NCBI GenBank assembly: GCA_013824615.1
Contig: PNOC01000015.1
Location: forward strand, 1 to 64,000
Source: Thermodesulfovibrio sp.
GTDB taxonomy: Bacteria; Nitrospirota; Thermodesulfovibrionia; Thermodesulfovibrionales; UBA6898
DNA: 64,000 bases
Direction: 5' to 3'
The notes beneath the pieces were generated by a model. The model was given only the letters and a program-made list of their open reading frames with translations. It did no database searches and had not been told where the DNA came from. Positions 3,786 to 34,194 of this stretch are shown here, in pieces. A program made the translations under genes and the position numbers. Within the stretch, counting starts at the first letter, position 1, and the number at the start of each line of letters is the position of its first letter.

Positions 3786-4658
3786 ATGGAACTCGGCAAT
3801 ATTTTTGAACGTTTCAACAACCAGAAAACATTGCAGGCAGTCACGCTCTGCCTTGGACTGATCCTGGGCCTGGCGGTATTGTTTCTGGTGCGGGACATCG
3901 TATCAATCTCTGTAACTCCTAAGGAAAAAACTGCGAAGACACCTGCCAAACCGGCCGGGGACACAAAACGCAGCCTGTCGGACTATGCCCCTGTGCTTGC
4001 CAGCAACCCCTTTGGTTTTCCAGGCGGTGAGTTGCAATTGCTGTCAGCCGCAGCCGGGCCGTCAGTCTCCCGGACCGACCTCACGCTTATTGGCACGGTA
4101 GCAGGAAGAAGAGATGTCAGTTATGCAATCCTTGCCGACAAGTCCGGACAGCAGGATGTATTCAGGATAGGAGCCCAGGTCTTCGGGCTGGGCAAGCTTG
4201 CAAAAGTTGAAATGACGAGGGTCTTCATAGGGAGTAAGGGCAGCGAGATTGAAGTCAAACTCAAGGACATTACAGACATCCGGGAGATAAAACAGGCAGA
4301 TGTCCCCACCGCAGCCTCCTTCGGCCGGAGGGTGGGAGATTCAACCTACCAGATCGACCAGCAGCGGGTGCAGCAGGCGATAGAAAAACCTGACCAGATC
4401 ATGACCGATGCCAGGTTTGTCCCCCATATCGTCGAGGGAAAACAGCAGGGCTTTATACTCCGGGAAGTAAAACCGGGAGGGATATACAGTAGTCTTGGTC
4501 TGCAGAACGGGGACATACTTCTGAGAATAAATGAGTTCTCCATATCCAACCCCGAAACAGCTTTGCAGGCTTTTACCGCTCTGAGGGGCATCGACCGGGC
4601 CCAGCTCGATGTAATCCGCAACAGTGCAAAAATGACCATGACGTACCAGATACGATAA
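3786..4658 (+). CDS. gspC: Type II secretion protein GspC
   Basis: Inner-membrane clamp protein of the T2SS, which links the inner-membrane platform to the secretin. A short cytoplasmic N-terminus is followed by one membrane helix (about residues 19-38). A homology region of about residues 65-165 has the expected small beta domain that contacts GspD N0. A C-terminal PDZ domain lies at about 215-290, with GGIYSSLGLQNGDILLRIN as its typical core. Length 290 is normal for PDZ-type GspC. It opens the gsp gene set; 73 bases with a promoter-like site separate it from gspD. Confidence 0.92.
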   Translation: MELGNIFERFNNQKTLQAVTLCLGLILGLAVLFLVRDIVSISVTPKEKTAKTPAKPAGDTKRSLSDYAPVLASNPFGFPGGELQLLSAAAGPSVSRTDLTLIGTVAGRRDVSYAILADKSGQQDVFRIGAQVFGLGKLAKVEMTRVFIGSKGSEIEVKLKDITDIREIKQADVPTAASFGRRVGDSTYQIDQQRVQQAIEKPDQIMTDARFVPHIVEGKQQGFILREVKPGGIYSSLGLQNGDILLRINEFSISNPETALQAFTALRGIDRAQLDVIRNSAKMTMTYQIR

Positions 4659-4731: not shown

Positions 4732-6933
4732 ATGAAAAATATGAACTTTCTCCCCAAAATGTATAGAGGTTTCGTGGTTGGCATGCTGCTTCTGATCGCA
4801 GTTGCCGGAATGCTTTCTCTGCCGCAGCCGGTTGCTGCGGATTCGAAGGTTTCACCTGAAAACAAAAAATCCAATAAGGTCACCTTTAATTTTGTGGACG
4901 TTGACCTTCCGGCGGTTGCAAAATTCATCAGCGAGATAACCGGCAGGAATTTTATTTTTGATGAGCGGGTGAAGGGCAAGATAACGATCATTGCCCCTTC
5001 AAAACTTTCTGCTGACGACGCATACAATCTGTTCACTGCCGTACTTGAAGTCAAAGGGTTTACCGTTGTGCCCGCAGGGGTTGACGCTTTCAAGATCATC
5101 CCCTCGATCGAGGCGAAACAGCGCGGTCTGGAGATCTCGACAGAGGGATCGCTCACCAATGAGGGCTATATCGCCCGCCTCATCTCGCCGAAATATATAT
5201 CTGCTGACGACGCCATGAAGTTCTTTCAGCCGCTCATTTCAAAAGACGGGCATATCGCAGTATTCGGTCCGGGGAACCTCCTGCTGGTTATCGACGCCGG
5301 CCTGAATATCGAGAAAATCCTTTCCCTCATTGAGCTCATAGACAAACCCTCTCTCACAGACATGCCAGAGGTTATCCTCCTGAAATATTCAAGTTCTGAT
5401 TCTGTCACAAAGATCCTGAACGACGGGCTCGGAAGATTAAAAGTGCGGGGAACCCCTGGCCAGCAGATCGGGGTTGACACAGCACTGGCTGTCAGCGATC
5501 AGCGGCTGAATGCAGTCATCCTCTTTGGCGAGCGCACCGGGAGGGAGGCGATGAAGACGCTGATCAGGCTGATTGACGCGCCATCTCCAGAGGCCCAGGG
5601 AAGGATCAATGTATATTTTCTCGAAAATGCGGACGCGACTGAACTGGCAAAGGTGCTTGAGGGAATGATCAGGGGTATGCAGACCGCACGCCAGGGGGTA
5701 CCCGGAGTCGCAGCGGCTGCGGGATCTCCTTTTGAGGCAGCAGGCGGCATAACCATAACACCTGATAAGGCAACGAACTCGATTATCGTGGCCGCCTCTC
5801 CTGCCGACTTCCAGAACCTCGCCCAGATACTGAAGCAGCTTGACAAGAGAAGGAAGCAGGTTTATGTCGAGGCGATGATCATTGAGGCAACGATCGATAA
5901 ATTGCTTGATATCGGGGCAAAGTGGAGGGCCACGGCAAAGCATAATGGCGATCCGGTACTCATCGGCGGAGTTGGCCAGATAGACTCTTCAGCGCTTCAG
6001 TCTGTGATATCAGGGCTTGCCGGTTTCACACTGGGCGGCATGGGGAGCTTCATGAATATCCCACTGACATCGGTTGTCAATGGCCAGCCTACCACATCTA
6101 ATCTCAATGTACCAGGGTTTGCTGCCCTTTTCAGCCTCAGTGAATTCAAGGATTCTATTAATGTACTTTCGACCCCGCAGATTTTGACCTCGGACAACAA
6201 AGAGGCTGAGATCGTGGTGGGAGAGAACGTCCCCTTCATAGGGAAGAGAGAGCGCGACATCACAACGTCCAGTACAGTCCTCAGTTCGGTCGAAAGGAAG
6301 GATGTCGGCATAACCCTGAGGATCACCCCACAGATTACAGAGGGTGATTATATCAAGCTCGATATCTTTCAGGAGATCTCCTCCCTTAAAGAGGATTCTG
6401 AAAATATCCTGACCTCCATCGGACCGACCACGACAAAGCGTTCCACGAAGACCTCGGTAGTCGTCAAAGACAACAATACTGTTGTCATCGGCGGTCTTAT
6501 GCAGGAAAAAGACAATGTGAATGTAACGAAGATTCCTGTGCTGGGCGACATCCCTGTTCTGGGATACCTGTTCAAGCAAAAATCCGTTGGCAAGACAAAG
6601 ACAAACCTTCTTGTCTTCCTCACCCCCCATATTATCAAGGAGGCCTCAAGCCTCGCAACAATAACCGCCAGCAAGCAGCGGGAATTTGCTGTCAGTCAGA
6701 ATCGCTATATTAATGGGGTATTGCTGGTAACCTTCAAACACTGGGTCCCGGAAGATAAAGCACTGATGCTTATAGAATCAAAAGGCGCGTTGATAACAGC
6801 CAAAACCGGCCATCATCAGTCTTTCAGGATTAAACTCAGAGAAAAACAGCCGGTAGAAGAGGCCCTTGCGGAGTTCAGGGCGATTCCTGAAATAGAATCT
6901 GCAGAGCCTGTTTACGACACTGACCTGAAGTAA
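4732..6933 (+). CDS. gspD: Type II secretion secretin GspD with a C-terminal propeptide-like domain
   Basis: Outer-membrane secretin of the T2SS, 733 aa. A signal peptide (hydrophobic core about residues 13-30) leads to N0 (about 45-125), ring domains N1-N3 (about 130-375) and the secretin barrel (about 430-640), with the usual VIGGLM and VPVLGDIPVLGYLF-like segments. After the barrel, residues about 660-731 do not look like the usual S-domain. They read LLVTFKHWVPEDKALMLIES, later VEEALAEFRAIPEIESAEPVY, which matches the pattern of subtilase propeptides. The first ATG has no ribosome site; ATG 4741 or 4759 are possible starts. Six bases separate it from gspE. Confidence 0.95.
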   Translation: MKNMNFLPKMYRGFVVGMLLLIAVAGMLSLPQPVAADSKVSPENKKSNKVTFNFVDVDLPAVAKFISEITGRNFIFDERVKGKITIIAPSKLSADDAYNLFTAVLEVKGFTVVPAGVDAFKIIPSIEAKQRGLEISTEGSLTNEGYIARLISPKYISADDAMKFFQPLISKDGHIAVFGPGNLLLVIDAGLNIEKILSLIELIDKPSLTDMPEVILLKYSSSDSVTKILNDGLGRLKVRGTPGQQIGVDTALAVSDQRLNAVILFGERTGREAMKTLIRLIDAPSPEAQGRINVYFLENADATELAKVLEGMIRGMQTARQGVPGVAAAAGSPFEAAGGITITPDKATNSIIVAASPADFQNLAQILKQLDKRRKQVYVEAMIIEATIDKLLDIGAKWRATAKHNGDPVLIGGVGQIDSSALQSVISGLAGFTLGGMGSFMNIPLTSVVNGQPTTSNLNVPGFAALFSLSEFKDSINVLSTPQILTSDNKEAEIVVGENVPFIGKRERDITTSSTVLSSVERKDVGITLRITPQITEGDYIKLDIFQEISSLKEDSENILTSIGPTTTKRSTKTSVVVKDNNTVVIGGLMQEKDNVNVTKIPVLGDIPVLGYLFKQKSVGKTKTNLLVFLTPHIIKEASSLATITASKQREFAVSQNRYINGVLLVTFKHWVPEDKALMLIESKGALITAKTGHHQSFRIKLREKQPVEEALAEFRAIPEIESAEPVYDTDLK

Positions 6934-6939
6934 TCTCCG

Positions 6940-8475
6940 ATGGAGACCCTCGATACAATAACAGACGAAGATGTTGAACACGCCCTGATAAAAGATATCC
7001 CCCTCGCCTTTGCTAAAGGCAACCTGATCATGCCGCTGAAAAGGAAAGACGGATATCTCAGGGCAGCGGTTGCCGATGATAAAGGAGTACTTGCCCTGCG
7101 TGAACTGTCTGCACATTTTGGCCTGAAGCCCGCCGCAGTGCATACCTCCCCGGGAGTCGTCATCGACGCGGTCAACCGTTTCTATGGCCAGGTCGGCTCG
7201 GCTGAAGAAGTGATGGACAATATTACCGGCGAGGACCTGACCTCGGTGGCAACGGAATTCGAAAAACCGAAGGACATCCTCGAACTGACGGAAGAAGCCC
7301 CGATCATCAGACTGCTGAATGCGATACTGCAGCAGGCGGTGAAGGAGCGGGCAAGTGATATCCATATCGAGCCGTATGAAAAAGAACTGGACATCCGGAT
7401 GCGTGTCGATGGGATGCTGCACCGCGTCCTGACCCCCCCGAAGATCATCCAGGATGCCCTGATCAGCAGGATCAAGATCATGTCGAACCTCGACATTGCT
7501 GAAAAAAGACTGCCCCAGGACGGCCGCATACGGCTGCTGATCGGCGGAAGGGATGTGGATATAAGGGTTTCTATTCTGCCGACCTCGCACGGCGAACGGG
7601 CAGTGCTGAGACTGCTCGACAGGAAGCAGGGCCTGATCGGTCTTTGGGAGGTCGGGCTCGACAAAGAAGACGAAGTCCTCATGGAACAGCTGCTGAAAAG
7701 GACCAGCGGCATCATCCTTGTCACCGGGCCGACCGGAAGCGGCAAGACAACGACCCTGTATGCTGCGCTCAACAGGGTGCATACCGAAGAAAAAAACATC
7801 ATCACGGTCGAGGACCCGGTCGAGTACCAGCTGAAAGGGATTGGGCAGATACATGTCAATCCGAAGATAGGCCTCACCTTTGCCTCAGGCCTCCGGTCGA
7901 TACTGCGCCAGGACCCCGACATCATCATGGTCGGGGAAATACGTGATGTAGAGACAGCTGAGATTGCGATCCAGGCCTCCCTGACCGGGCACCTGGTCCT
8001 GAGCACACTCCACACGAATGACGCGCCCTCGGCCATTATCAGGCTGATCGATATGGGAGTTGAACCTTTTTTGGTTGCTTCCTCCCTGGTAGGAGTCCTG
8101 GCCCAGAGGCTTGTCAGGGTCATCTGCCCTGACTGCAGACAGGCGTATGAACCCTCGGAAATTGAGCGCTCGTATTTTGACAGTACGGTCCTCTCAAAAA
8201 AGACCAGTCCTCTTTTACTCTATAGAGGTGCAGGCTGCGACAAATGCGGGGGCAAGGGATATCTGGGCCGTACCGGCATCTATGAACTCCTCCAGGTCGA
8301 TGATGCAACCCGGCTTTTGATCACCGAACGCCCTGATGCCCAGAAGCTCAAAAGCGCTGCTATAGCCAGAGGCATGCAGACGCTGCGGTCTGACGGCTTT
8401 GAAAAGGTGCTGCTGGGGATTACCACGATCGAGGAAGTCCTCAGGGTCACGCAAAAAGATGTTGTCGAATCCTGA
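6940..8475 (+). CDS. gspE: Type II secretion ATPase GspE
   Basis: Cytoplasmic hexameric ATPase that powers pseudopilus assembly. An N-terminal GspE domain (about 1-110) precedes the catalytic part. Walker A GPTGSGKTTT is near residue 263, followed by the Asp box ITVEDPVEYQ, a Walker B region DPDIIMVGEIRD and the His box TLHTNDA. A zinc-type four-Cys motif (CPDC, then CDKCGGKGY) is near residues 396-435. Length 511 is typical. The gene starts 6 bases after gspD, so translation is probably coupled. Confidence 0.96.
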   Translation: METLDTITDEDVEHALIKDIPLAFAKGNLIMPLKRKDGYLRAAVADDKGVLALRELSAHFGLKPAAVHTSPGVVIDAVNRFYGQVGSAEEVMDNITGEDLTSVATEFEKPKDILELTEEAPIIRLLNAILQQAVKERASDIHIEPYEKELDIRMRVDGMLHRVLTPPKIIQDALISRIKIMSNLDIAEKRLPQDGRIRLLIGGRDVDIRVSILPTSHGERAVLRLLDRKQGLIGLWEVGLDKEDEVLMEQLLKRTSGIILVTGPTGSGKTTTLYAALNRVHTEEKNIITVEDPVEYQLKGIGQIHVNPKIGLTFASGLRSILRQDPDIIMVGEIRDVETAEIAIQASLTGHLVLSTLHTNDAPSAIIRLIDMGVEPFLVASSLVGVLAQRLVRVICPDCRQAYEPSEIERSYFDSTVLSKKTSPLLLYRGAGCDKCGGKGYLGRTGIYELLQVDDATRLLITERPDAQKLKSAAIARGMQTLRSDGFEKVLLGITTIEEVLRVTQKDVVES

Positions 8476-8510: not shown

Positions 8511-9683
8511 ATGCCGCTTTTTAACTATACAGGGTATAAGCCTGACGGCTCGGGGACAACCGGCGTCATTGAGGCCGACGGAATTCAGGATGCAGCCTCC
8601 GGCGTAAGGGCCCTCGGCATCTATCCGAAGGATATCAGACCGCATACAGACAAAAGGGAATGGAAGCTTCGCAAGAACGAAGCCGCACTGCTCCCGGTCA
8701 TGACCCGCCAACTCTCGACCCTGCTTTCCGCCGGGGTCCCGCTTCTGGAGGCCCTTAAGTCTCTCTCGGATGAAAGTACCGGCTTCTGGAAGACCATGCT
8801 CATCAATATCCGTGAGAATGTCTCTGGCGGCGCCAGCCTGTCGCGTGCTTTGGAGGCTGAAAAAAAAATCTTTCCTGATTTTTACATCAATATGGTGGCG
8901 GCCGGCGAGCAGAGCGGCAGAATAAGCATTGTACTGGAGAATCTGTCTGCCTTTCTCGAAAAGCAGGAGGCCATGAGATCGAAGATCCGCACAGCCCTGA
9001 TCTACCCGCTATTTATGACTGCGGTAGGCTTTGTGGTACTCTCTTTCCTTTTCACCTTTGTGCTCCCGAAAATCGTCAGGATCTTTGAAAACACCAAAAG
9101 CGCCCTGCCGCTGATTACCAGGGTACTGATTGTAATAAGTACCGTCTTCGTCAACTATTGGTGGCTGCTCCTGGCACTGGCTGTTGCCCTCTACTACGGC
9201 TTCAGAAAGTACCGGAAAACCCACCAGGGAACCCTGGACAGCTTGAAGCTGAAACTTCCGGGCAACCTTCTTCAGAGTCTCTACTATGGCCGCTTCGCGC
9301 GGACAACAGGGTTTCTCCTTGACGGCGGTCTCCCCCTGCTGCGGGCTTTGGAGCTGTCGGCGAAATCGCTTGGGAACAGCATGCTGCAGCACAGGATCAT
9401 CGATGCGGCCAAAATGGTTGCCGAAGGGTCGCGGCTTTCGACCGCCCTGGCGGGGTTCCCCTCGGTGCTGGTGCAGTTGATAGCAACAGGCGAAAAAAGC
9501 GGCACGCTCGCAGAGGTGTTAAGCAGGGCAGCGGACAGTTATGAAGCTGAGTTCGAAAGAAGGGTCCAGAAGGCGCTTTCCCTGCTTGAACCGATGATGA
9601 TCCTGCTGATGGGGGTCATCGTGGGAGCTATAGTTCTGGCGGTCCTTCTGCCGATGTTCCAGCTCAACCAGCTGATAAAATAG
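8511..9683 (+). CDS. gspF: Type II secretion inner-membrane platform protein GspF
   Basis: Polytopic platform protein that contacts GspE and GspL. It has two repeated GspF cytoplasmic helical domains (about residues 60-185 and 260-385) and three membrane helices, near 160-185, 210-235 and the C-terminus (LLMGVIVGAIVLAVLLPMF). Length 390 is standard. ATG 8511 starts PLFNYTGYKPDG, the usual beginning of the family. The next gene downstream is a peptidase rather than gspG. Confidence 0.95.
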   Translation: MPLFNYTGYKPDGSGTTGVIEADGIQDAASGVRALGIYPKDIRPHTDKREWKLRKNEAALLPVMTRQLSTLLSAGVPLLEALKSLSDESTGFWKTMLINIRENVSGGASLSRALEAEKKIFPDFYINMVAAGEQSGRISIVLENLSAFLEKQEAMRSKIRTALIYPLFMTAVGFVVLSFLFTFVLPKIVRIFENTKSALPLITRVLIVISTVFVNYWWLLLALAVALYYGFRKYRKTHQGTLDSLKLKLPGNLLQSLYYGRFARTTGFLLDGGLPLLRALELSAKSLGNSMLQHRIIDAAKMVAEGSRLSTALAGFPSVLVQLIATGEKSGTLAEVLSRAADSYEAEFERRVQKALSLLEPMMILLMGVIVGAIVLAVLLPMFQLNQLIK

Positions 9684-9768: not shown

Positions 9769-11640
9769 ATGCATCTATTGAAAAACTTTCTTTTTCTGCT
9801 TGTTTCGCTTTTTCTCCTGACGCCCGGGGGCTTCTCTGGCGCAGAGGTCGACCAATCCTCCATCAATCAGGACATCAATGCGCTTTTCGGCAGGAACATG
9901 CTCTACCGCCAGGGGGAGACAGCACCTCAAACTATCTATAAATCCGGCACCCCCATCGCACTCTCTGCAAAGATGTACCCTGAATATCTGACCCCGGAGA
10001 ACAGATTTATTCTGCGGCGGCCGGTGGACAGCAATGACACGGACTTCTACGGGACAGGTGTTATCGTGCTGACATATGACACCCCCGGCGGTCATATCAG
10101 GATACACTATACTGAAGACAACAGGCAGGGCGACGCTGTCTCGGGCTACGACGGCAATCCGGCAACCATCCCCCGTTTTGTTATCGATACCGGCGTGGCG
10201 TTTGAGAACTCATACAGTCATATCCTGGGGTTGGGATACGCGGACCTGCCGGGAGACGGCACCCGGGGAGGCGACAACCGGCTCGACGTCTATCTCCTCC
10301 ATCTGCCCGGCAGTTATGGCTACACCTCATTCGAACAGACACCCTCAGATGCGTACATAGTCTTCGACAGCACCTTCACCGACAAGCCGGCCAATCTTGA
10401 CCCGGCAGGAAGACAGGCCGGAGATATCAAGGTAACAGCAGCCCATGAGCTCTTTCATGCCTTCCACTTCCAGTTGTCGACCGACATCACCAAAAATGGC
10501 TGGTGGATGGAGGCTTCATCCACCTGGATGGAGGACGAGATATACCCTGAAGTCAAAGACTACCTCAACTATGTCGGATCGAGATACGACGACGCCAACG
10601 ATAATGGGAAATGGGACACAGGAGAGACCTATTACACTATCTTAGGTACAAAGGCAGGCACCACCGGCAGGGCTGATAAATGGTTCGACAGGCCTGGTTC
10701 TCCGCTGGATACCTACAACGGCAGTTATGAGTACGGAAGTATCATATGGGTCAAGTATCTCTCCGAAACCCGTGGCATCGACATTATAAAGAATATCTGG
10801 AACCGCACTGGAAATGGCAGTGCGGCCATCAGTGCCATCTCTGCGCAACTTATCTCGCTGAACAGTTCGCTCAACGTGGAACTGAAAAGCTTCAGGCAGA
10901 AGGTCCTGTTGCGGGAGTTCGCGGACAGGGAGTACTATCCTCCGGCGAAACAGGAGGCAAGCTTCAGCACCCTCCCCCAGACGATAACAGGGAGCCTGAG
11001 CCACCTTGCCGCGCGCTACTATGACTTCAAACCGGACACTGCGGCCAAGCCGCTGACCTTTAAATTTACCAACATGAACTCAGGCACCCTGACAGCCCTG
11101 TTGCTTCTGAAAAAAAATGATGGCAGCTTTGACCGGCTGGACATTCTGCCCGACAGCGCGGCCGCTGTCAAATCAGTCGGCGACTTCGGCTCGGGCGGAA
11201 CATACCGCAGGGCAACGCTCATAATCATGAATAACGACCCTGCGTCAGAGAACCAACCCATATCCATTGAGGTGACGAACGAAGAGCAGGTTCCCGCACC
11301 GCCCGCTAACAGCGGCGGGGGTGGCGGTGGCGGCTGCTTCATCGCAACAGCCGCCTATGGCAGTCCCCTGGCCCCTGAAGTTGATACACTCAGGAGATTC
11401 AGAGACGCATATCTGCTCACCAATCCTGCAGGCAGGGCCTTCGTCAGCATCTATTACCGGCTGTCGCCAAATGCCGCGGCCTTCATCAGCAGGCACGAAG
11501 GATTGAGGACTGCAACACGTCTGTCACTCTACCCGGTAGTGTACGGCATACAGCACCCGTATGCTGTTTTATCGGTAATATTTATCTTCGGGACTCCTGC
11601 TTTTGTTACAATTATAAAGAGAAGAAAAAGAAGAAGCTGA
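9769..11640 (+). CDS. Secreted HEXXH metallopeptidase with CFI-box-type C-terminal tail
   Basis: A 623-aa predicted exported zinc peptidase placed between gspF and gspG. A signal peptide covers about residues 1-25. The zinc motif is HELFH at about 226-230; WWMEASSTWMEDE about 18 residues later supplies a Glu that could be the third ligand, as in gluzincins. After beta-rich sequence comes a glycine-run linker (about 515-522), then CFIATAAYGSPLAPEV from Cys about 523, a hydrophobic segment near 590-612 and a basic end KRRKRRS. Motif, membrane helix and basic tail are the layout of C-terminal sorting signals, and this one matches what is called the CFI-box-CTERM type. The ribosome site AAGGA precedes ATG 9769. 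The location suggests a T2SS substrate or processing enzyme; that is inference. Confidence 0.85.
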   Translation: MHLLKNFLFLLVSLFLLTPGGFSGAEVDQSSINQDINALFGRNMLYRQGETAPQTIYKSGTPIALSAKMYPEYLTPENRFILRRPVDSNDTDFYGTGVIVLTYDTPGGHIRIHYTEDNRQGDAVSGYDGNPATIPRFVIDTGVAFENSYSHILGLGYADLPGDGTRGGDNRLDVYLLHLPGSYGYTSFEQTPSDAYIVFDSTFTDKPANLDPAGRQAGDIKVTAAHELFHAFHFQLSTDITKNGWWMEASSTWMEDEIYPEVKDYLNYVGSRYDDANDNGKWDTGETYYTILGTKAGTTGRADKWFDRPGSPLDTYNGSYEYGSIIWVKYLSETRGIDIIKNIWNRTGNGSAAISAISAQLISLNSSLNVELKSFRQKVLLREFADREYYPPAKQEASFSTLPQTITGSLSHLAARYYDFKPDTAAKPLTFKFTNMNSGTLTALLLLKKNDGSFDRLDILPDSAAAVKSVGDFGSGGTYRRATLIIMNNDPASENQPISIEVTNEEQVPAPPANSGGGGGGGCFIATAAYGSPLAPEVDTLRRFRDAYLLTNPAGRAFVSIYYRLSPNAAAFISRHEGLRTATRLSLYPVVYGIQHPYAVLSVIFIFGTPAFVTIIKRRKRRS

Positions 11641-11684: not shown

Positions 11685-12128
11685 ATGTCAGAACATCATA
11701 AGAAGAATGCAGGCTTTACGCTGCTTGAGATCATTGTTGTTGTCTTTATTCTGAGCCTTCTTGCCGCAATCGTAGCCCCGAAGATCATCGGCAGAACAGA
11801 TGACGCCAAGATCGATGCGGCCAAGGTCCAGATCAGGAATATCGAGACCGCCTTAAAGCTCTTCAAAATGGACAGCGGCTTCTACCCTGATACACAGCAG
11901 GGGCTTGAATCCCTGACGGTAAAACCGGAAACCGGAAGGGTCCCCGCCAAATACCGTGAGGGCGGCTATCTTGAGCAGAAAAAAATTCCGCTCGACCCCT
12001 GGGGAAGTCCTTATATCTATGTATCACCGGGTATCCATGGCGACTATGACCTCATCAGCCTCGGGTCAGATGGCAAGGAGGGCGGCAGCGGAAAGGATGC
12101 TGATATCACCAACTGGGACATGCAGTAG
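11685..12128 (+). CDS. gspG: Major pseudopilin GspG
   Basis: Main subunit of the T2SS pseudopilus. The 10-residue leader MSEHHKKNAG ends at the prepilin peptidase site before FTLLEIIVVV, with Glu at mature position 5. The C-terminal calcium-loop region is clear (LDPWGSPYIY ... DLISLGSDGKEGG). Length 147 is normal. A strong ribosome site GGGAGGT lies just upstream. The prepilin peptidase GspO/PilD that must process it is not in this window. Confidence 0.97.
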   Translation: MSEHHKKNAGFTLLEIIVVVFILSLLAAIVAPKIIGRTDDAKIDAAKVQIRNIETALKLFKMDSGFYPDTQQGLESLTVKPETGRVPAKYREGGYLEQKKIPLDPWGSPYIYVSPGIHGDYDLISLGSDGKEGGSGKDADITNWDMQ

Positions 12129-12138
12129 AAGAAGCCGG

Positions 12139-12585
12139 ATGTGGAGCCGGAACTTTGGGTTCACCCTTCTTGAGATAATCCTCGTTGTTTTTATCATCTC
12201 ATTGTTCACGGCTTTCGCGCTGCCCTCGTTTTCAAATCTCGGCTCCGGAGGCCTGAAGAACGACGCAAAGAAATTCGCCTCGCTTCTCAGGTACCTGAAC
12301 GACAGTTCGATCTATACCAAGAAAGACTTTCAGCTCAATTTTAATTTCAGCGACAAAACAGTATCGTGGAACGGCCCTGAGGGTGAAAAATCCCGGGAAC
12401 TGGGAGCAATAACCTCAGTGACCCTCCCGTCAAAAGGCATTGTGCGCGAAGGACAGATAATTGTCTTTTTCGGCCCCTTGGGGATCAGCGAAAATATAGA
12501 AATTACTTTGAGCAAGGGAGAACATGAGGCAAAGATCAGCATGAACTCTCTGAGCGGTCGGGTGAAGATAACAGACAATGAGTAA
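12139..12585 (+). CDS. gspH: Minor pseudopilin GspH
   Basis: A 148-aa prepilin. I start it at ATG 12139, giving the 7-residue leader MWSRNFG before FTLLEIILVV. An upstream in-frame ATG at 11956 would overlap gspG by about 170 bases and is unlikely. AGAAGAAG just before the ATG can serve as ribosome site. The mature part is beta-rich, as in the FimT/GspH head domain. It overlaps gspI by 8 bases. Confidence 0.88.
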   Translation: MWSRNFGFTLLEIILVVFIISLFTAFALPSFSNLGSGGLKNDAKKFASLLRYLNDSSIYTKKDFQLNFNFSDKTVSWNGPEGEKSRELGAITSVTLPSKGIVREGQIIVFFGPLGISENIEITLSKGEHEAKISMNSLSGRVKITDNE

Positions 12586-12979
12586 CGGCTTCGTAAAAAG
12601 TCCGCAGGCGGCGTTGCGCTTAATAACTCGTCACGGCGACCTACCAGATAAAGGCTTCACGCTTCTGGAGATCATGATCGCACTGGCCATTGTCGGCGGG
12701 CTCCTCGTCACGCTGATATACACGCTGAATTATAATCTCGGTATTGCGGAAAGACATGAGTTCGTCACGATCGCTTCCATGCTCGCAAAAAACAGACTTC
12801 TGGAGCTTGAGACCACCCCGGTAAACGCAGAGGGGGATTTCCCTGAACCTCATGCCGGGTATCACTTCACGGCAGAGGTGAAGAAGTATTCCTTTGCCGG
12901 AATATCGCAGTTGTCAGTGACCGTCAGGCAGGACAAGCAGGAAATCCGCTTTTCAAGGCTCGTCGAGGCAAAGAAATGA
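12578..12979 (+). CDS. gspI: Minor pseudopilin GspI with extended leader
   Basis: A 133-aa prepilin with the cleavage site DKG before FTLLEIMIALAIVGG. The leader is 26 residues, far longer than the 6-15 of its siblings. The DNA coding its first 20 or so residues looks like a dispersed intergenic repeat rather than pilin sequence. An in-frame TTG at 12614 would give a shorter leader but has no ribosome site. The ATG overlaps the end of gspH by 8 bases, and the stop overlaps gspJ by 4. Confidence 0.88.
   Translation: MSNGFVKSPQAALRLITRHGDLPDKGFTLLEIMIALAIVGGLLVTLIYTLNYNLGIAERHEFVTIASMLAKNRLLELETTPVNAEGDFPEPHAGYHFTAEVKKYSFAGISQLSVTVRQDKQEIRFSRLVEAKK
12587..12640. repeat. Repeat-like segment inside the gspI leader
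   Basis: The stretch begins GGCTTCGTAAAAAGTCCGC and continues with GGCGTTGCGC and CGTCACGGCG. These blocks recall a dispersed repeat I know from deltaproteobacterial-type genomes. No second copy is visible in this window, so the assignment rests on memory of the pattern. Confidence 0.4.
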
Positions 12980-13656
12980 GCGGACTTTTGTTGAAAAATA
13001 TTCCAAAAAACAAAGGGTTTACTCTCCTGGAGGTACTGCTGTCGCTGCTGCTGCTCACCATCGTGTTAGGCGCCATATACAGCACCTTTTTTCTTGCCCA
13101 GAAGGCCGTTACCGGCATTGACGATTCTCTGCTGAAGCTTCAGGAAGGCAGGTCGTTACTCGATACTCTCAGCAGGGAGATCGACGCAGCTGTATACTTA
13201 CAGAGCAAGAGCAAATCACTATTCAAAATAGAGGATCGGGATATCTACGGCAAGCAGACCTCGCGCCTCACCTTCACCACGCTTTCCCCGCAGAGGCCCG
13301 GATTGTCACGCGTCACCTATCATATAGAAGAACACGATAAAATCCTGGTTCTCTATAAAAAAATGGACAACCCGTATAGAGAGAGTCCCGAGTCCAGGGC
13401 AACGGATTCAACAGCAGGCGGGACAGTCCCGAACCAGTCTGAGAATCTGCCCAAGGAGCTGCCCACGGAGCTGATAGAGGGGCTGGAATCTTTCACTGTC
13501 GAGGTCAAAGAGGGCACGAACTGGGTAAAGACATGGGACACGGCAGAAACGAAAAAAATGCCGCTCGAAATACGCGTCACCCTCGTCTTCAAGACTAAGG
13601 ACAGGCCGGTGACCCTCTACGAAATAATTAAGCCGAAGATAGGCAATGCGATATGA
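12976..13656 (+). CDS. gspJ: Minor pseudopilin GspJ
   Basis: A 226-aa prepilin with a 14-residue leader ending KNKG before FTLLEVLLSLLLLTIVLG. The body is larger than the other minor pseudopilins, as expected for GspJ, which sits at the pilus tip with GspI and GspK. The ATG overlaps the gspI stop (ATGA), and the TGA overlaps the gspK ATG, so gspI-J-K are translationally coupled. Confidence 0.92.
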   Translation: MSGLLLKNIPKNKGFTLLEVLLSLLLLTIVLGAIYSTFFLAQKAVTGIDDSLLKLQEGRSLLDTLSREIDAAVYLQSKSKSLFKIEDRDIYGKQTSRLTFTTLSPQRPGLSRVTYHIEEHDKILVLYKKMDNPYRESPESRATDSTAGGTVPNQSENLPKELPTELIEGLESFTVEVKEGTNWVKTWDTAETKKMPLEIRVTLVFKTKDRPVTLYEIIKPKIGNAI

Positions 13657-14717
13657 GTCTGTGGAGTGAAAAGCGAGACAACAGCACGTGCGCTCATTCT
13701 CGGCCCGATAAAAACGGGCCTGCGAGGCACCGGCGCAACACGCCGCTGAATCCGCTTACATGCCATTGCCTCGCTTTTCATAATCTATCTGATTGTTTTA
13801 TATCCACAGGAGACGGGCAAACGGAAAACCCGAGGAACAATCACGGGATGGCGCTTGTGCTGACGCTGATGGTTGTCACGCTCGTCACGGCAATGGTGGT
13901 CGAGTTTGCTTATGGCGTCTATGTCAGCACCAGCGCGCTCCACAACTGGCAGACCTCTCAGCAGCTCTCGCTTGCCGCACGTTCGGCAACCCAGTTGGGC
14001 AGCCGGCTTATTGTCGAAAAAAAGGCCCTCGAACCGAACTACACCTACCCGGGTGTTTTTGAAACCTCGCAGAAGATCCCGTTCGAGGAGCTTGAAGGAA
14101 CAATCTCGATCCGCATAGAAGACGAAGCTGCGCGGTTTAATATTAATACCCTTGTATATGCCACCGGTGCGGTTGACAGGAATTATGCCTACCCTGCATT
14201 TATAAGGCTGTTGAAAGCACTCGAACTGAAGCCTGATATTGCAGACAGGATCGTTGACTGGATCGATCCTGACAACATACCAAACCTACAGGGTGCAGAG
14301 GATGAGGCGAAAAATGGGTATCTCGACAGCATGGACGAGCTTTTGACTATACCAGGCATCGATAAAGAGACATTTGAGCGCCTGCAGCCGTATGTTACAA
14401 TATACGGGAGCAACGTCATAAATATTAACACTGCCGGTGTTCCGGTCCTCAGGTCGCTTCCGGGGGATATAGACAAGAGTATGGCAGAAAATATTGTGCA
14501 TTACAGAGAGCTGACGCCATTACAAATTCCAACAGATATATTAAAAGTTGCGGGGTTTAAAACTGTGGGTAATACGATGCTGGGAAGATTTAACGTTTAC
14601 AGTAATACCTTCCGTATCATAGCGACCGCTACGTCCGGAGACATAAAAAGGATCATCGAAAGCGTCGTAGCCATTTCGGGAACATCGAGAAGCGTCCTGT
14701 ACTGGAGGGAATACTAG
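13653..14717 (+). CDS. gspK: Minor pseudopilin GspK with a 65-residue leader
   Basis: Tip pseudopilin of the T2SS. The mature part begins at MALVLTLMVVTLVTAMVVEF (residue 66) after NNHG, lacks Glu at position 5 as GspK does, and continues with the large globular domain, including two helix-hairpin-like segments (about 225-245 and 270-290). The 65-residue leader is exceptional. Most of it is coded by a 114-bp inverted-repeat element. No NTG start lies between the repeat and the cleavage site, so ATG 13653, overlapping the gspJ stop, is the only supported start. Confidence 0.9.
   Translation: MSLWSEKRDNSTCAHSRPDKNGPARHRRNTPLNPLTCHCLAFHNLSDCFISTGDGQTENPRNNHGMALVLTLMVVTLVTAMVVEFAYGVYVSTSALHNWQTSQQLSLAARSATQLGSRLIVEKKALEPNYTYPGVFETSQKIPFEELEGTISIRIEDEAARFNINTLVYATGAVDRNYAYPAFIRLLKALELKPDIADRIVDWIDPDNIPNLQGAEDEAKNGYLDSMDELLTIPGIDKETFERLQPYVTIYGSNVININTAGVPVLRSLPGDIDKSMAENIVHYRELTPLQIPTDILKVAGFKTVGNTMLGRFNVYSNTFRIIATATSGDIKRIIESVVAISGTSRSVLYWREY
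13667..13780. repeat. 114-bp MITE-like inverted-repeat element in the gspK leader
   Basis: Terminal inverted repeats of 15 bases, TGAAAAGCGAGACAA at 13667-13681 and TTGCCTCGCTTTTCA at 13766-13780, pair with one mismatch. Inside are two hairpins: GGCCCG/CGGGCC (13702-13720) and CGGCG/CGCCG (13731-13745). The length, 114 bases, is a multiple of 3, so the element is carried in frame. No transposase is encoded and no target-site duplication is obvious. Confidence 0.65.
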
Positions 14718-14721
14718 GAGC

Positions 14722-15810
14722 ATGAGACAGGCTGTTTTATTTGATCTGAGGCAGGACTCACTCTCGATCTACACGCTTGACCGTGATCAGAAGGCAGTTC
14801 TCAACAAAGAGACGATCGCGATATCCGGCCCTATATCTGTCAATATATCTTTTCCTGCTGAAGTCAGTACATCGCTGCAGGAGACCACTGAATGCTACCT
14901 GAGCCTTCCGCTGAGCCTTCTGAACTTCAGGATCATCGAAATGCCGTTCTCTGATATTAAAAAGGTGCGGGAACTTCTGCCCTTTGAACTTGAAGGCCTT
15001 ATCATGTCCGGCGTCTCTTCAGTGATCTTTGACGCCTTTGTTCTGGGTGAGCAGGACGGCAAGCACCGGATATTCGTGGCGTATGTCGCTAAAGATTTAC
15101 TCAGGGATATCCTGGGACAGCTGAAAAAATATAATGCAGACCCCAGGCTTACCTTCTCTCTTGAACTGGCAGATCTGTTGCAGAAGAGCAAGGGCGGGGA
15201 GATAACCGGACTGATGCAGGAGCCCCCGACTCTGACCGAAGCAACGCTTATCGAAACAGCCCTCAGGGAAATGTCCCATCCTTCCTTTAATTTCAGGAGG
15301 GATGAGTTTGCCTATACCGTGGATGACCGCAAACAGAAGAAAATGCTGCGGGTAGCCGCAATCCTGCTGGTCCTTATTGTTGCAGTCTTCCTTGTTGATA
15401 TGTCGGTAGTTGCCCTGTCGGTAAGGAGTGAAAACCGGTCTCTCAGGGACGGACTCCGCAAGACCTATCAAGAGGTTTTCCCCGGCGATAAAAAAATCTC
15501 GGATGAAGTTTACCAGATGAGGGCCCACCTCAAAGAACTGAAAGAAAAGGAGACCTCTTTCATCGGCTCGTCCCCGCTTCTGGTCATGCTCGACCTGTCA
15601 AAGGTTGTCAAACCGGGGATAGCCTTCAGTGAGATGACTGTCGACAGCAACCTGATCGTGATGAAGGGGGAGTGCCCTTCGCTGGGCGACGCGCAGAAGA
15701 TCAAGTCAGATCTGGACCCCTTTTTCCTTGATGTGAATATCTCCGAGACAAAGCCGTCTGCTCAGGGCAAGACCCAGTTTACGATGACCGCAAAAGGAAG
15801 AAAATCGTGA
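14722..15810 (+). CDS. gspL: Type II secretion protein GspL
   Basis: A 362-aa bitopic inner-membrane protein that recruits GspE. The cytoplasmic actin/PilM-like domain covers about residues 1-200. One membrane helix at about 210-235 (VAAILLVLIVAVFLVDMSVV) is followed by a periplasmic coiled segment and a ferredoxin-like domain. TAGGAGC directly before ATG 14722 is the ribosome site. The stop overlaps the GTG of gspM. Confidence 0.88.
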   Translation: MRQAVLFDLRQDSLSIYTLDRDQKAVLNKETIAISGPISVNISFPAEVSTSLQETTECYLSLPLSLLNFRIIEMPFSDIKKVRELLPFELEGLIMSGVSSVIFDAFVLGEQDGKHRIFVAYVAKDLLRDILGQLKKYNADPRLTFSLELADLLQKSKGGEITGLMQEPPTLTEATLIETALREMSHPSFNFRRDEFAYTVDDRKQKKMLRVAAILLVLIVAVFLVDMSVVALSVRSENRSLRDGLRKTYQEVFPGDKKISDEVYQMRAHLKELKEKETSFIGSSPLLVMLDLSKVVKPGIAFSEMTVDSNLIVMKGECPSLGDAQKIKSDLDPFFLDVNISETKPSAQGKTQFTMTAKGRKS

Positions 15811-16508
15811 ATATCAGAGCCGACAAGCGAATCCTCCTGCTGGCAGGTACCGTTGCGGTCATCTGCCTCTGCCTGGTCATGGCCGGAGTGGTGCGGTCCC
15901 TGAAAACAGAAAACAGCATGCTGAAGGCCAAGAAAAAAGAACTTGCCCTGTTGAAGGACGAGACCCTGTCCCTAAAAGGTAAGGTTGATGCATCCGAAGC
16001 GCGCAAGTCGCTCGCAAAAGTCGAAGGGGTTGTGCAGGCAATCGACGAAATCGTCAAATCGCTCGGTGTTGCCCAGAAGGTAAAGTCAGTGAAATCGCTT
16101 GGCGTACGGGACAGACAGTATGCGGTTGAAGAAGAAGCCGAGGTCCAGTTCGAAAAGCTGAGTATGAACGAGATGGTGAATATATTTTTCAGGATCGAGA
16201 ATGCCCCGATGGTCCTGGCCATCAAAAAGACCACGCTCAAGACGTCCTTCGACAGTCCGTCTCTTCTGAATATCTCCTGCATTATCAGCCTGGTGAAGTC
16301 AAAAGCCGAATCCCAATACAAAGCGCAAGTCATACCACAGGCCGCACCACAAGTCGGAGCGCAGACTGTACCTCAGGCTGCACCAAAGGCCGAAGCTCAA
16401 GTCGAAGTTCAAGTCGGATTGGGGGCCAGATCCAGGTCAGGATCCAGGACTGCACCAAAACAGTCCGGCTCAGGAAACAGACGCAGCGCCAAGTCCATAG
16501 AGGATTAA
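15807..16508 (+). CDS. gspM: Type II secretion protein GspM
   Basis: A 233-aa bitopic protein with a short cytoplasmic end, a membrane helix at about residues 8-28, a coiled coil (about 30-75) and a small periplasmic domain to about 172, as in GspM, the partner of GspL. The start is GTG 15807 overlapping the gspL stop. From about residue 173 there is a low-complexity tail of Pro-Gln-Ala units (VIPQAAPQVGAQTVPQAAPK) and then Arg/Ser/Gly-rich sequence, which is unusual for the family. Confidence 0.8.
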   Translation: MNIRADKRILLLAGTVAVICLCLVMAGVVRSLKTENSMLKAKKKELALLKDETLSLKGKVDASEARKSLAKVEGVVQAIDEIVKSLGVAQKVKSVKSLGVRDRQYAVEEEAEVQFEKLSMNEMVNIFFRIENAPMVLAIKKTTLKTSFDSPSLLNISCIISLVKSKAESQYKAQVIPQAAPQVGAQTVPQAAPKAEAQVEVQVGLGARSRSGSRTAPKQSGSGNRRSAKSIED

Positions 16509-16526
16509 TACTCTCATGGTGGCATA

Positions 16527-17309
16527 GTGAAATATATCCTCACAGCTTTTGCGGTCCTTTTCCTTCTCGTCATCGGCACCTGGATAATCGCCATCCCCGA
16601 GACAACCATCCTGACTCTGATCGGGAACGCACTCAGCGACAGCAGGGTGCAGGTTGAATGTGACGGGTTCAGAAAAAGTCTTTTCTTCGGGTTTAATGCA
16701 GAGAAGATCTCTGTCAAGAAAAGTGAGCGGCTCCTGATTGCCGTTGACAGCTTCTCCGGGCAGATAGATTTTTTTTCACTCATAAAACTGAAGCCAATGT
16801 TTAACTTTTCCGGAAATATAGGAAGCGGCAGACTGCAGGGCAGCGCAGAGCTTCTCAGAAAAAGCCGCGAGGTCTCGGTGAGCATAACTGAAGTGGATAT
16901 TGCAGCGATCCCTTTTTTTGAACTCGCCGGCTTACGGGGCGGCGGTCGTATATCCGGGAATATGGTTTTGCAGAATAACAGGGGTGAGATAAGGTTCGAT
17001 CTCAAGGAAATGAAAATCCCCAGCGGCACCTTTGGGAACATCGCGGTCCCTCTGCATTTTTTCGAGAGCGCGCAGGGGGCCATGGAGATAAGCGGCAGCA
17101 AGGCAAAGGTCAACTCTTTTACGATGGAGGGGCCTGGTGTCTACGCCCGCATCAGAGGTGACATCACGGACAGCAGGCTGGCCCTGACCCTGGAGATGAT
17201 GCCCGAGAAAACCTTTGCCGACAGGAACCCGCTTCTGCTGCTATTGGAGAAGTACAAGGTGTCGCCGGGCATGTACCTCATCCCGCTGACGAACCGTCTG
17301 GATTTTTGA
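16527..17309 (+). CDS. gspN: Type II secretion protein GspN
   Basis: A 260-aa protein with one N-terminal membrane helix (about residues 3-24) and an all-beta, AsmA-like periplasmic domain, the pattern of the GspN family found at the end of some T2SS operons. The start is GTG 16527, 18 bases after gspM. The role of GspN is not well defined. A promoter-like site and a different functional block follow. Confidence 0.8.
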   Translation: MKYILTAFAVLFLLVIGTWIIAIPETTILTLIGNALSDSRVQVECDGFRKSLFFGFNAEKISVKKSERLLIAVDSFSGQIDFFSLIKLKPMFNFSGNIGSGRLQGSAELLRKSREVSVSITEVDIAAIPFFELAGLRGGGRISGNMVLQNNRGEIRFDLKEMKIPSGTFGNIAVPLHFFESAQGAMEISGSKAKVNSFTMEGPGVYARIRGDITDSRLALTLEMMPEKTFADRNPLLLLLEKYKVSPGMYLIPLTNRLDF

Positions 17310-31989: not shown

Positions 31990-34194
31990 TTACTTCCCCG
32001 GCTTTCCGGTACCGGACTTCTCACGGATAACCTCATTCCGCCTGATATCAATATCCTTGAGACCCTGAAGCCTCTTTATGTAGCCGGAGGTGACCTCTCG
32101 CGCGTCGACTTCGTGCCTGATGACATGCGGCGTCAGCAGGATAATCAGCTCGGTCCTGTCACTGGTATCTGTAGTGCTGCCAAAGAGATATCCCAGGACC
32201 GGTATCTTACTGAGCAGCGGCAACCCTGACCTGCCCTTGGTGATCTTCTCTTTTATAAGGCCGCCAATAACAATCGTCTGCCCGTCCAGTGCTACCAGGT
32301 TGGTTGTCGCCTCACGCTTGCTTATAACGATCTGGTCTGACCCGAACAGGGACTGTGTCGAAAAATCAGATACTTCCTGGGTAACCTCAAGGGCTATAAG
32401 CCCGCTGTCATTTACCTGTGGCTTGACCTTGAGGATCGTACCGGTATCTTTGTACTGGATCGTACTCGTAATAGAAGGCTGTATGCCGGACTGAGCAGTG
32501 GTTGTCGTGGTCGAGGTCGCAATCGGCACCTGGTCTCCGACCTGTATCCTCGCCTCGCGATTGTCTGACACCAGTATATGCGGTGAGGAGAGTATCTTCA
32601 CCCTGTTCTGGCCGGCAAGTGACTGCAGCTTGAGCTTTATATTGCCTGCCGCATCAAGCGCGGTAAAGGTAAAATTGGGTGATGCGATAGGTGTCGTCAG
32701 ATTGAAGGTGCCGTCAAGATTGACATCTTTTTTGAAAGGGTTGAGACCCTTCAGGGTAAGGTCATTCTCTATTGACCATTGCATGCCGAAATTCATCGTG
32801 TCATTGAGCGTCACTTCCGCGATAAGGGCCTCGATCATTACCTGCCGCGGTACAATGTCAATCTTCAGGAGCGTGTCATAGATGATCAGATAATCATCAG
32901 GAGTCGACAGCACAACGAGTGAATTCGTAATCTCGTCGGGGATGATCTTGGTACTCTCGGAGATCAGGATATCCCCCGCTGCATTCGGTTGAGCGGATAT
33001 CACCTGGGGCTGTGTCGAAGGCTGTGCTGCCGGCTGGCCGGCCGGCTGTGCCGGAGAACCGGGCCGCTGCTGGGTTGCGGGTCTTGCTGCCTGTGCCGTA
33101 GGCCGTGCACCCAGGAAGATCTGCTGGAGTATCGCCGCAAGATCTTTGGCCTTGCTGTTCTGAACAGGGTAGACAAACACCTGCGGCGTGACCTGCTTAA
33201 GCTGTTCACTGTCAAAAATCTCCACCAGCTGAAGCAGTCTTTTCACATTGGCATCAGTATCAACAATGATAATATAGTTGCTTTTGGGAACATCGATGAT
33301 GACGGCACTTTTCGAAAGAAAAGGAGTAAGAACTCTTGTCAGCTCACCAGACTGGCTGTACAGCACAGGGACTACCTGCACCAGAGCCTTCCCTGTAATC
33401 TTGACCTTATCCGCCTCCCGGCCGATAAACACCGGAGCAGGTTCCTTCGACAGGTCTGCAATCGGAATAATCCGGTATAGTCCGCCCTCCTCAACAATTC
33501 CAATGCCGTTCAGCCTGAGGATAACCTCCATGAGGGGCATCACGTCGTCCTTTGCAACCGGGGCCACCGACCGGAAATTCACGCGTCCTTTAATATTCGG
33601 GTCAACAATATAGTTGACCTTCAGCACGTCGCCGAATATTGTCTGGATTACAGAAAAGACATCGGCATCATCAAAGTTAAAGCTGACATCTCCGCCTTTT
33701 ACTCCGGTCCTCCTTACTGCAGCAGCTTGAGGGCGGCCCGACACAGGCTGCAACTTTGGCGGCGTGACCGTTGTTGTAACAGCTGCCGGAACAAAAAAAT
33801 TATCCGCAGGAGCCTTTGCTACCGGTGCAATGGCCGCGGGACCAGGCGTTGGCGTTGGAGTCTTTGAATACGTTGCCTCTGCGGTGGGAACAAAATAATT
33901 CACCGGCACCGACAGGGCAGCGTCCGGGGACAGCGCAGACTCTGACTGAAGGTTTGTGGCCGGTTGACTGTAGGGTTCAGCAACAGCCGGCGTTGTTGGC
34001 GCATCGGTTGTCGTCGGGGGTTGCGACGTCCGAGCTGCCGGACCTTGCGCAGCAGTGGCTGCCCTTCTTTTTTGTTTGGGTGACATATTTTCTGCACCCG
34101 GAATATTGAAAAATGCATTTGAGATGCTTGCATCGTGAAGGAACAGACTGAATATGCAGGCTAGCGCAATCAGCACCGCCGGATTTTTTTGCAT
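31990..34194 (-). CDS. Second GspD/PilQ-type secretin
   Basis: A 734-aa outer-membrane secretin, clearly diverged from the GspD at 4732-6933. A signal peptide (about 1-27) is followed by a Pro/Thr/Ala-rich linker (about 40-165). Then come N0 (DVSFNFDDADVFSVIQTIFG, from about 170), N1 and N2 (about 245-375), a Pro/Gln-rich insert (about 385-425) and the secretin barrel (about 455-680), with TIVIGGLIKEK and LSKIPVLGYLFGS. It lacks the propeptide-like end of the first GspD. No ATPase or pilin genes stand next to it. Its own promoter is at 34233-34261. It may serve another secretion or pilus system, or form a second pore for the T2SS. Confidence 0.93.
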   Translation of the reverse strand: MQKNPAVLIALACIFSLFLHDASISNAFFNIPGAENMSPKQKRRAATAAQGPAARTSQPPTTTDAPTTPAVAEPYSQPATNLQSESALSPDAALSVPVNYFVPTAEATYSKTPTPTPGPAAIAPVAKAPADNFFVPAAVTTTVTPPKLQPVSGRPQAAAVRRTGVKGGDVSFNFDDADVFSVIQTIFGDVLKVNYIVDPNIKGRVNFRSVAPVAKDDVMPLMEVILRLNGIGIVEEGGLYRIIPIADLSKEPAPVFIGREADKVKITGKALVQVVPVLYSQSGELTRVLTPFLSKSAVIIDVPKSNYIIIVDTDANVKRLLQLVEIFDSEQLKQVTPQVFVYPVQNSKAKDLAAILQQIFLGARPTAQAARPATQQRPGSPAQPAGQPAAQPSTQPQVISAQPNAAGDILISESTKIIPDEITNSLVVLSTPDDYLIIYDTLLKIDIVPRQVMIEALIAEVTLNDTMNFGMQWSIENDLTLKGLNPFKKDVNLDGTFNLTTPIASPNFTFTALDAAGNIKLKLQSLAGQNRVKILSSPHILVSDNREARIQVGDQVPIATSTTTTTAQSGIQPSITSTIQYKDTGTILKVKPQVNDSGLIALEVTQEVSDFSTQSLFGSDQIVISKREATTNLVALDGQTIVIGGLIKEKITKGRSGLPLLSKIPVLGYLFGSTTDTSDRTELIILLTPHVIRHEVDAREVTSGYIKRLQGLKDIDIRRNEVIREKSGTGKPGK

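Follow-up and report, generated by a model that had tools for sequence, protein, structure and literature searches.

The type II secretion system (T2SS) secretin GspD encoded in the window, that is, in the whole 64,000-nucleotide stretch of Thermodesulfovibrio sp. contig PNOC01000015.1 analysed here, ends in a genuine subtilase-propeptide domain (residues about 658–733), as judged from sequence, profile and predicted structure together. An earlier, sequence-only reading of this DNA had proposed that GspD carries, fused to its C-terminus, a domain like a subtilase propeptide, and that proposal is fully borne out. The gene itself is a gspD: the equivalog profile TIGR02517 matches its product end to end over residues 52–645 with 519.8 bits, above the cut-off of 351.35, and a complete gsp cluster lies around it.

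The two segments that had been quoted for the domain, LLVTFKHWVPEDKALMLIES and VEEALAEFRAIPEIESAEPVY, are present in the C-terminus of GspD, and the extent of the domain could be improved to residues 658–733, following a helix at residues 641–657 (Table 1). PF22148 (Fervidolysin N-terminal prodomain), whose curated cut-off is 21 bits, matches residues 647–726, scoring 26.3 bits when the whole protein is searched and 29.6–29.9 bits when the tail is taken alone, and a six-frame search of the genome gave an independent match at 6670–6909. This match is not due to chance, because 23 of 24 homologous GspD tails also match PF22148 (best E 1.1e-17), because a profile built from GspD tails only picks up a real subtilase propeptide encoded in the same genome (contig C11 of G000; 57.3 bits, E 4e-15) as well as the propeptides of subtilases sited next to T2SS clusters, and because a profile–profile comparison by hhalign, with 24 tails on one side and 16 subtilase propeptides on the other, gave a probability of 99.9 (E 3.4e-32) over 80 columns. 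Chance, a frameshift or an assembly error as the source of the tail is ruled out, as 72 genomes share the architecture. Searches against PDB sequences gave only chance matches to repeat proteins (WD40, Pumilio) for the single-sequence phmmer run with the tail, and no significant match for the tail profile; therefore, the tie of the tail to solved structures rests on the fold comparison and Pfam.

The AlphaFold2 model of the tail shows a βαβ-βαβ arrangement, with strands at model residues 25–34, 53–58, 63–67 and 87–94, helices at 40–49 and 74–82, and a predicted local distance difference test (pLDDT) score near 90 in the core. The joining helix is predicted at model residues 7–23, and at 169–186 in a longer construct. 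When barrel and tail were modelled together, the barrel was poor (mean pLDDT 61) and the tail was again confident with the same fold; this model does not inform on packing against the ring. Subtilisin propeptides make up most of the top Foldseek matches, among them pro-subtilisin E and the BPN' prosegment, with fervidolysin further down; no match reaches E 0.001. In VIA-align, each of the ten rows with the highest Z is either a subtilase propeptide or POIA1, a propeptide-like inhibitor. The BPN' propeptide (1spb_P) aligns with the model at Z 9.8 and a root-mean-square deviation of 2.0 over 68 residues (model 27–99 on chain 7–77), and in this alignment the final residue of GspD falls on Tyr77, the final residue of the propeptide. 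The structure prediction thus gives the α/β propeptide fold at residues 658–733, and the ordinary helical S-domain, which the sequence-only reading had named as the outcome that would speak against it, was not seen.

Table 1. Features of the gsp cluster and of the GspD C-terminus in the window
Feature	Position	Strand	Basis
gspC	3786–4658	+	adjoins gspD; homologues precede gspD in related loci
gspD, T2SS secretin, 733 aa	4732–6933	+	TIGR02517; Pfam Secretin, Secretin_N, N0 domains
Helix joining barrel and tail, residues about 641–657, where the first S-domain helix would lie	6652–6702	+	AlphaFold2
Subtilase-propeptide domain, GspD residues 658–733	6703–6930	+	PF22148, AlphaFold2 fold, Foldseek, VIA-align, hhalign
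Glu725 codon, equivalent to helix-capping Glu69 of the BPN' propeptide	6904–6906	+	AEPNY motif alignment
C-terminal pentapeptide DTDLK past the last strand	6916–6930	+	structural alignment to 1spb_P; conserved Tyr spacing
gspE	6940–8475	+	homologues in related loci
gspF	8511–9683	+	homologues in related loci
Putative metalloprotease of the MXAN_6640 family with CFI-box-CTERM	9769–11640	+	NF045524 167.9 bits, NF041770 101.4 bits
gspG to gspN, pseudopilins and assembly-platform genes	11685–17309	+	homologues in related loci

In propeptide–subtilase complexes, Glu69 and Asp71 (BPN' numbering) near the end of the propeptide serve as caps for two protease helices, and the final propeptide residues occupy the active-site cleft (PMC6993865). 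The Glu is identical in 64 of 64 GspD tails (alignment column 90, Glu725 in the window) and in all subtilase propeptides compared. It is lost in two tails outside these 64, being replaced by Lys (SVKPNY) in L121 of genome G086, which is without a subtilase, and by Thr (SATPNY) in L126 of G038, in which no propeptide-type subtilase was found. These two losses would fit a link to subtilases, but with so few tails they give only a hint. The Asp71-equivalent position is Asn in 78% and Asp in 9% of the tails, and it is mostly Asn in subtilase propeptides also. Many tails end exactly five residues past the conserved Tyr, like the BPN' propeptide, and others have short or long extensions. For unsaturated pairs, the ratio of nonsynonymous to synonymous substitution rates (dN/dS) in the tail is about 0.2; therefore, the tail is under purifying selection.

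The survey of GspD C-termini covered the window's class, its sister classes, one further phylum (that of L028) and plasmid-borne secretins. GspD with the tail is present in 72 of the 120 sampled genomes of the window's class (Nitrospirota), in many families. Across 198 genomes of the phylum, a profile of the barrel end plus tail reaches the tail in this class only; in the other listed classes it stops at about positions 174–200 of 264, and in 140 genomes of the second phylum it reaches at most position 227 of 264, with no tail found in either. Nor was a tail found in the ten plasmid-borne secretins listed (819 records, of which 55 covering 80% of the query were not inspected). The window has a second secretin (31990–34194, minus strand, 734 aa), whose N-terminal region is long and rich in Pro and Thr and which has no propeptide-like tail.

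A tree of 64 GspD tails and 30 subtilase-type propeptides was built from 76 columns. FastTree placed all 64 tails and no other sequence on one side of a branch with support of 0.82, while a quick IQ-TREE tree required two changes; the tree with the tails as one clade was likelier and was not rejected (p-AU 0.74). One fusion event is the simplest reading of these trees, and 76 columns allow no more. In genus g2 of the window's own family (genomes G054 and G119), GspD ends in KEPGEPDLKVKDQ or a similar sequence without the tail domain, which probably reflects loss. In addition, G054 encodes a stand-alone, apparently secreted propeptide-like protein (L109:529–960; PF22148, 65.8 bits) just upstream of a subtilase that has its own propeptide. 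A detached GspD tail was considered as its origin and ruled out, since the protein groups with the propeptide of the neighbouring subtilase in the tree.

The S-domain with which GspD normally ends had been proposed to be replaced here. This holds in part: the region of the first helix is kept and is followed directly by the α/β domain, so that only the distal part is replaced and no S-domain of about 60 residues with helix alpha-12 is present. The two pilotin families PulS/OutS (PF09691) and AspS (PF16549), to which the search was confined among pilotin types, were each found in none of 61 genomes of the class, the window's genome included. In ExeD, the S-domain can vary or be lost with partial assembly (PMC6532946). 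One family adds a long linker and then a SPOR-like domain behind the tail (GspD of L017, L019, L023, L024 and L025), recognized by PF05036 above its cut-off in L017 and L024 and by similar sequence in the other three. Because SPOR, a peptidoglycan-binding module, comes after it, the end of the tail is placed in the periplasm. In solved secretins only the top rim lies in the membrane and the remainder is periplasmic (PMC9239104). Most likely, the domain stands as a collar round the barrel under the outer membrane, neither in the channel nor on the surface.

The gsp genes of the window run in the order gspC, gspD, gspE, gspF, the metalloprotease gene, gspG and gspH to gspN (Table 1). In related genomes, propeptide-type subtilases are found at three places in or beside such clusters: directly 3' of gspN (L008, L010/L103, L011, L101, L102 and L104), where some of them overlap gspN in stop-to-stop frames, upstream of gspC (L008, L011, L101 and L102), and between gspF and gspG (L105 and L106). 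Where a family code is available, the linked subtilases come from f10 or f8, two families in the sample; because there are two families and the positions differ, the association of subtilases with gsp genes probably arose more than once. The slot between gspF and gspG is occupied by a CFI-box-CTERM subtilase in L105 and L106 and by the CFI-box-CTERM metalloprotease of the MXAN_6640 family in the window; it seems to hold interchangeable proteases that share one sorting domain. In L106 (5531–8323, genome G062), one open frame starts with a propeptide and a subtilase, passes through FN3 and CFI-box-CTERM and goes on into a complete GspG that has its prepilin motif; it may encode a protease–pseudopilin polyprotein or contain a translation restart at an internal Met. 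The suggestion of the sequence-only reading that the domain could dock a secreted protease gets good, though indirect, backing from this subtilase–GspG frame and from the subtilases within gsp clusters.

The CFI-box domain is present in 7 of 10 subtilases scanned, as well as in the metalloprotease of the window's operon. Many other subtilases end in a Gly-rich-Cys segment, a hydrophobic stretch and Arg/Lys, which is the layout of MYXO-CTERM; the subtilase of the window's genome scores 14.0 against MYXO-CTERM, just under the cut-off of 15.85. In Myxococcus, MYXO-CTERM proteins reach the surface via the T2SS (PMC11980579). These sorting signals suggest that the subtilases are likely T2SS cargo. 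The propeptide-type subtilase of the window's own genome (L038:2991–5597, contig C11) carries a metallo-β-lactamase-fold hydrolase domain (NF001911-like) between its catalytic Asp and His motifs, which is either a true insertion or an assembly chimera.

Considering the homology, the fold, the distribution, the gene linkage, the sorting signals, the retained Glu and the purifying selection on the tail, we assume tentatively that the tail acts as a trans-acting propeptide that would bind and inhibit subtilases bound for the T2SS, a reading that we prefer among those weighed here, with a chance a little short of even. Homology, fold and distribution show that a subtilase propeptide was joined to the end of GspD, most simply in one event in an ancestor belonging to the window's class, and took the place of the distal S-domain. 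Since the C-terminus of GspD lies on the periplasmic side of the barrel and GspD is a 15-mer in characterised systems (PMC6532946), each channel would bear up to 15 propeptide-fold domains as a collar in the periplasm. Features for gripping a subtilase are retained, namely the Glu that caps helices and a chain that stops where the propeptide itself stops. Such a collar could bind mature or maturing subtilases exported by the same T2SS and hold them inhibited beside the portal, which would shield the envelope and the channel, and it might also concentrate subtilases for export. The fuller picture, in which the ring shows about 15 propeptide copies that silence the subtilases of the same T2SS until they exit, as a cargo-cognate safety collar, is somewhat less probable than inhibition as such.

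Several findings weigh against this assumption. The gene linkage is limited to the two families f10 and f8, and the subtilase of the window's own genome lies on a different contig from the gsp cluster. Five genomes that are at least 99% complete (G014, G015, G080, G086 and G094) carry the tail but gave no S8 protease match at E ≤ 10, and four of them, all except G086, retain the capping Glu. Over all genomes, the association of the tail with a propeptide-type subtilase has p 4e-8, but it weakens to p 0.085 among those with a GspD-type secretin (53/72 vs 9/18). The position equivalent to Asp71 is Val in the window's tail, and up to about 300 further residues follow some tails, so a free C-terminus is not essential. 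The tails also have conserved residues of their own (columns 45, 46, 63, 80 and 85) that are absent from subtilase propeptides and point to an altered partner or packing, and the collar lies outside the barrel and hence off the path through the channel. A strict dependence of the tail on a co-resident subtilase is ruled out by the five near-complete genomes.

These same S8-less genomes and GspD-specific residues are what would be expected if the domain had become a structural replacement of the distal S-domain that has lost its binding to proteases and instead packs on the barrel or an adjacent subunit, or else binds a partner that is pilotin-like or linked to peptidoglycan. The lack of PulS/OutS and AspS pilotins in the 61 genomes, the SPOR domain added past the tail in one family, and the variability of the S-domain in ExeD (PMC6532946) agree with it as well. 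However, such a structural role leaves unexplained why the capping Glu is kept in 64 of 64 tails and why subtilases lie within the gsp cluster; genus g2 has GspD though it is tail-less, and both Glu-less tails come from genomes in which no propeptide-type subtilase was found, although the latter is a hint only. We regard this structural explanation as possible, and as a serious competitor, yet doubtful on balance. T2SS cargo contacts the N-domains and GspC at the periplasmic entrance. If the domain instead recognised subtilase cargo as a targeting step in export, inhibition would not be needed, and the same subtilase linkage and sorting signals, together with a 15-fold display near the portal (PMC6532946), could be explained; but the C-terminus of GspD is outside the barrel and not at that entrance, and the candidate cargo of the window's cluster is a metalloprotease rather than an S8 protease, which makes a receptor of this kind unlikely. 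Taken together, the two possibilities that involve protease binding, inhibitor and receptor, are ranked somewhat above the structural one. The tail might also be a functionless leftover from an accidental read-in of the 5' end of a neighbouring subtilase gene. Subtilases that neighbour gsp genes in several lineages could have supplied the raw material, and the tail is absent in g2, but 72 genomes from many families retain it, its dN/dS is about 0.2 and some of its residues are invariant, which makes a functionless leftover very improbable.

Little is understood of how T2SS channels recognise folded cargo and escape damage by exported proteases. With a secretin that bears a domain whose known partners are subtilases, cargo recognition or inhibition at the channel can be tested directly; this secretin also has a C-terminus unlike both the pilotin-type and the pilotin-independent S-domains, and illustrates a route by which a propeptide can join a machine. 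If inhibition by the collar is true, a large part of a bacterial class would have built an inhibitor of its protease cargo into the secretion channel, which has not been described for any secretin. No fusion of a secretin with a subtilase propeptide was found in the full-text literature searched, which comprised open-access papers.

Compared with the N-terminal propeptides of S8 proteases, such as that of fervidolysin (PF22148; 1R6V) and the BPN' prosegment (1SPB), the GspD domain differs in its place, C-terminal to the secretin domain. It is never cleaved off a protease in cis, and it has its own conserved residues at the columns named above. No S8 catalytic domain follows it, as would be the case for a cis-chaperone propeptide; instead, the domain ends GspD. 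Stand-alone inhibitors, namely POIA1, the yeast proteinase B inhibitor, TgMIC5 and Plasmodium SUB1-ProM, likewise show the propeptide fold outside a protease precursor, and POIA1 (1v5i_B) aligns with the tail model at Z 8.7 with 25% identity. Such stand-alone or trans-acting propeptide-like inhibitors regulate subtilases and are known in eukaryotes, and the SUB1-ProM gene adjoins subtilase genes and its product has the capping Glu (PMC6993865). However, these proteins are soluble and their inhibition is proven, whereas the GspD tail is a putative inhibitor and part of a multimeric outer-membrane channel. The S-domains of the T2SS secretins PulD, EpsD and ExeD occupy the same position after the secretin domain, and their first helix appears to be retained in the window's GspD; they are short, helical or disordered and may bind pilotins, whereas here a folded α/β domain is found and neither known T2SS pilotin family is present in the class sample. 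Another secretin with an accessory domain facing the periplasm is LspD of Legionella, which bears SPOR as do relatives of the window's GspD; in LspD the SPOR domain is at the N-terminus (PMC9239104), whereas here it is C-terminal, after the propeptide-like tail, and occurs in one family only. Neither GspD nor the subtilase propeptide is new in itself; what appears to be new is their fusion, which is spread through a class and not confined to one genome.
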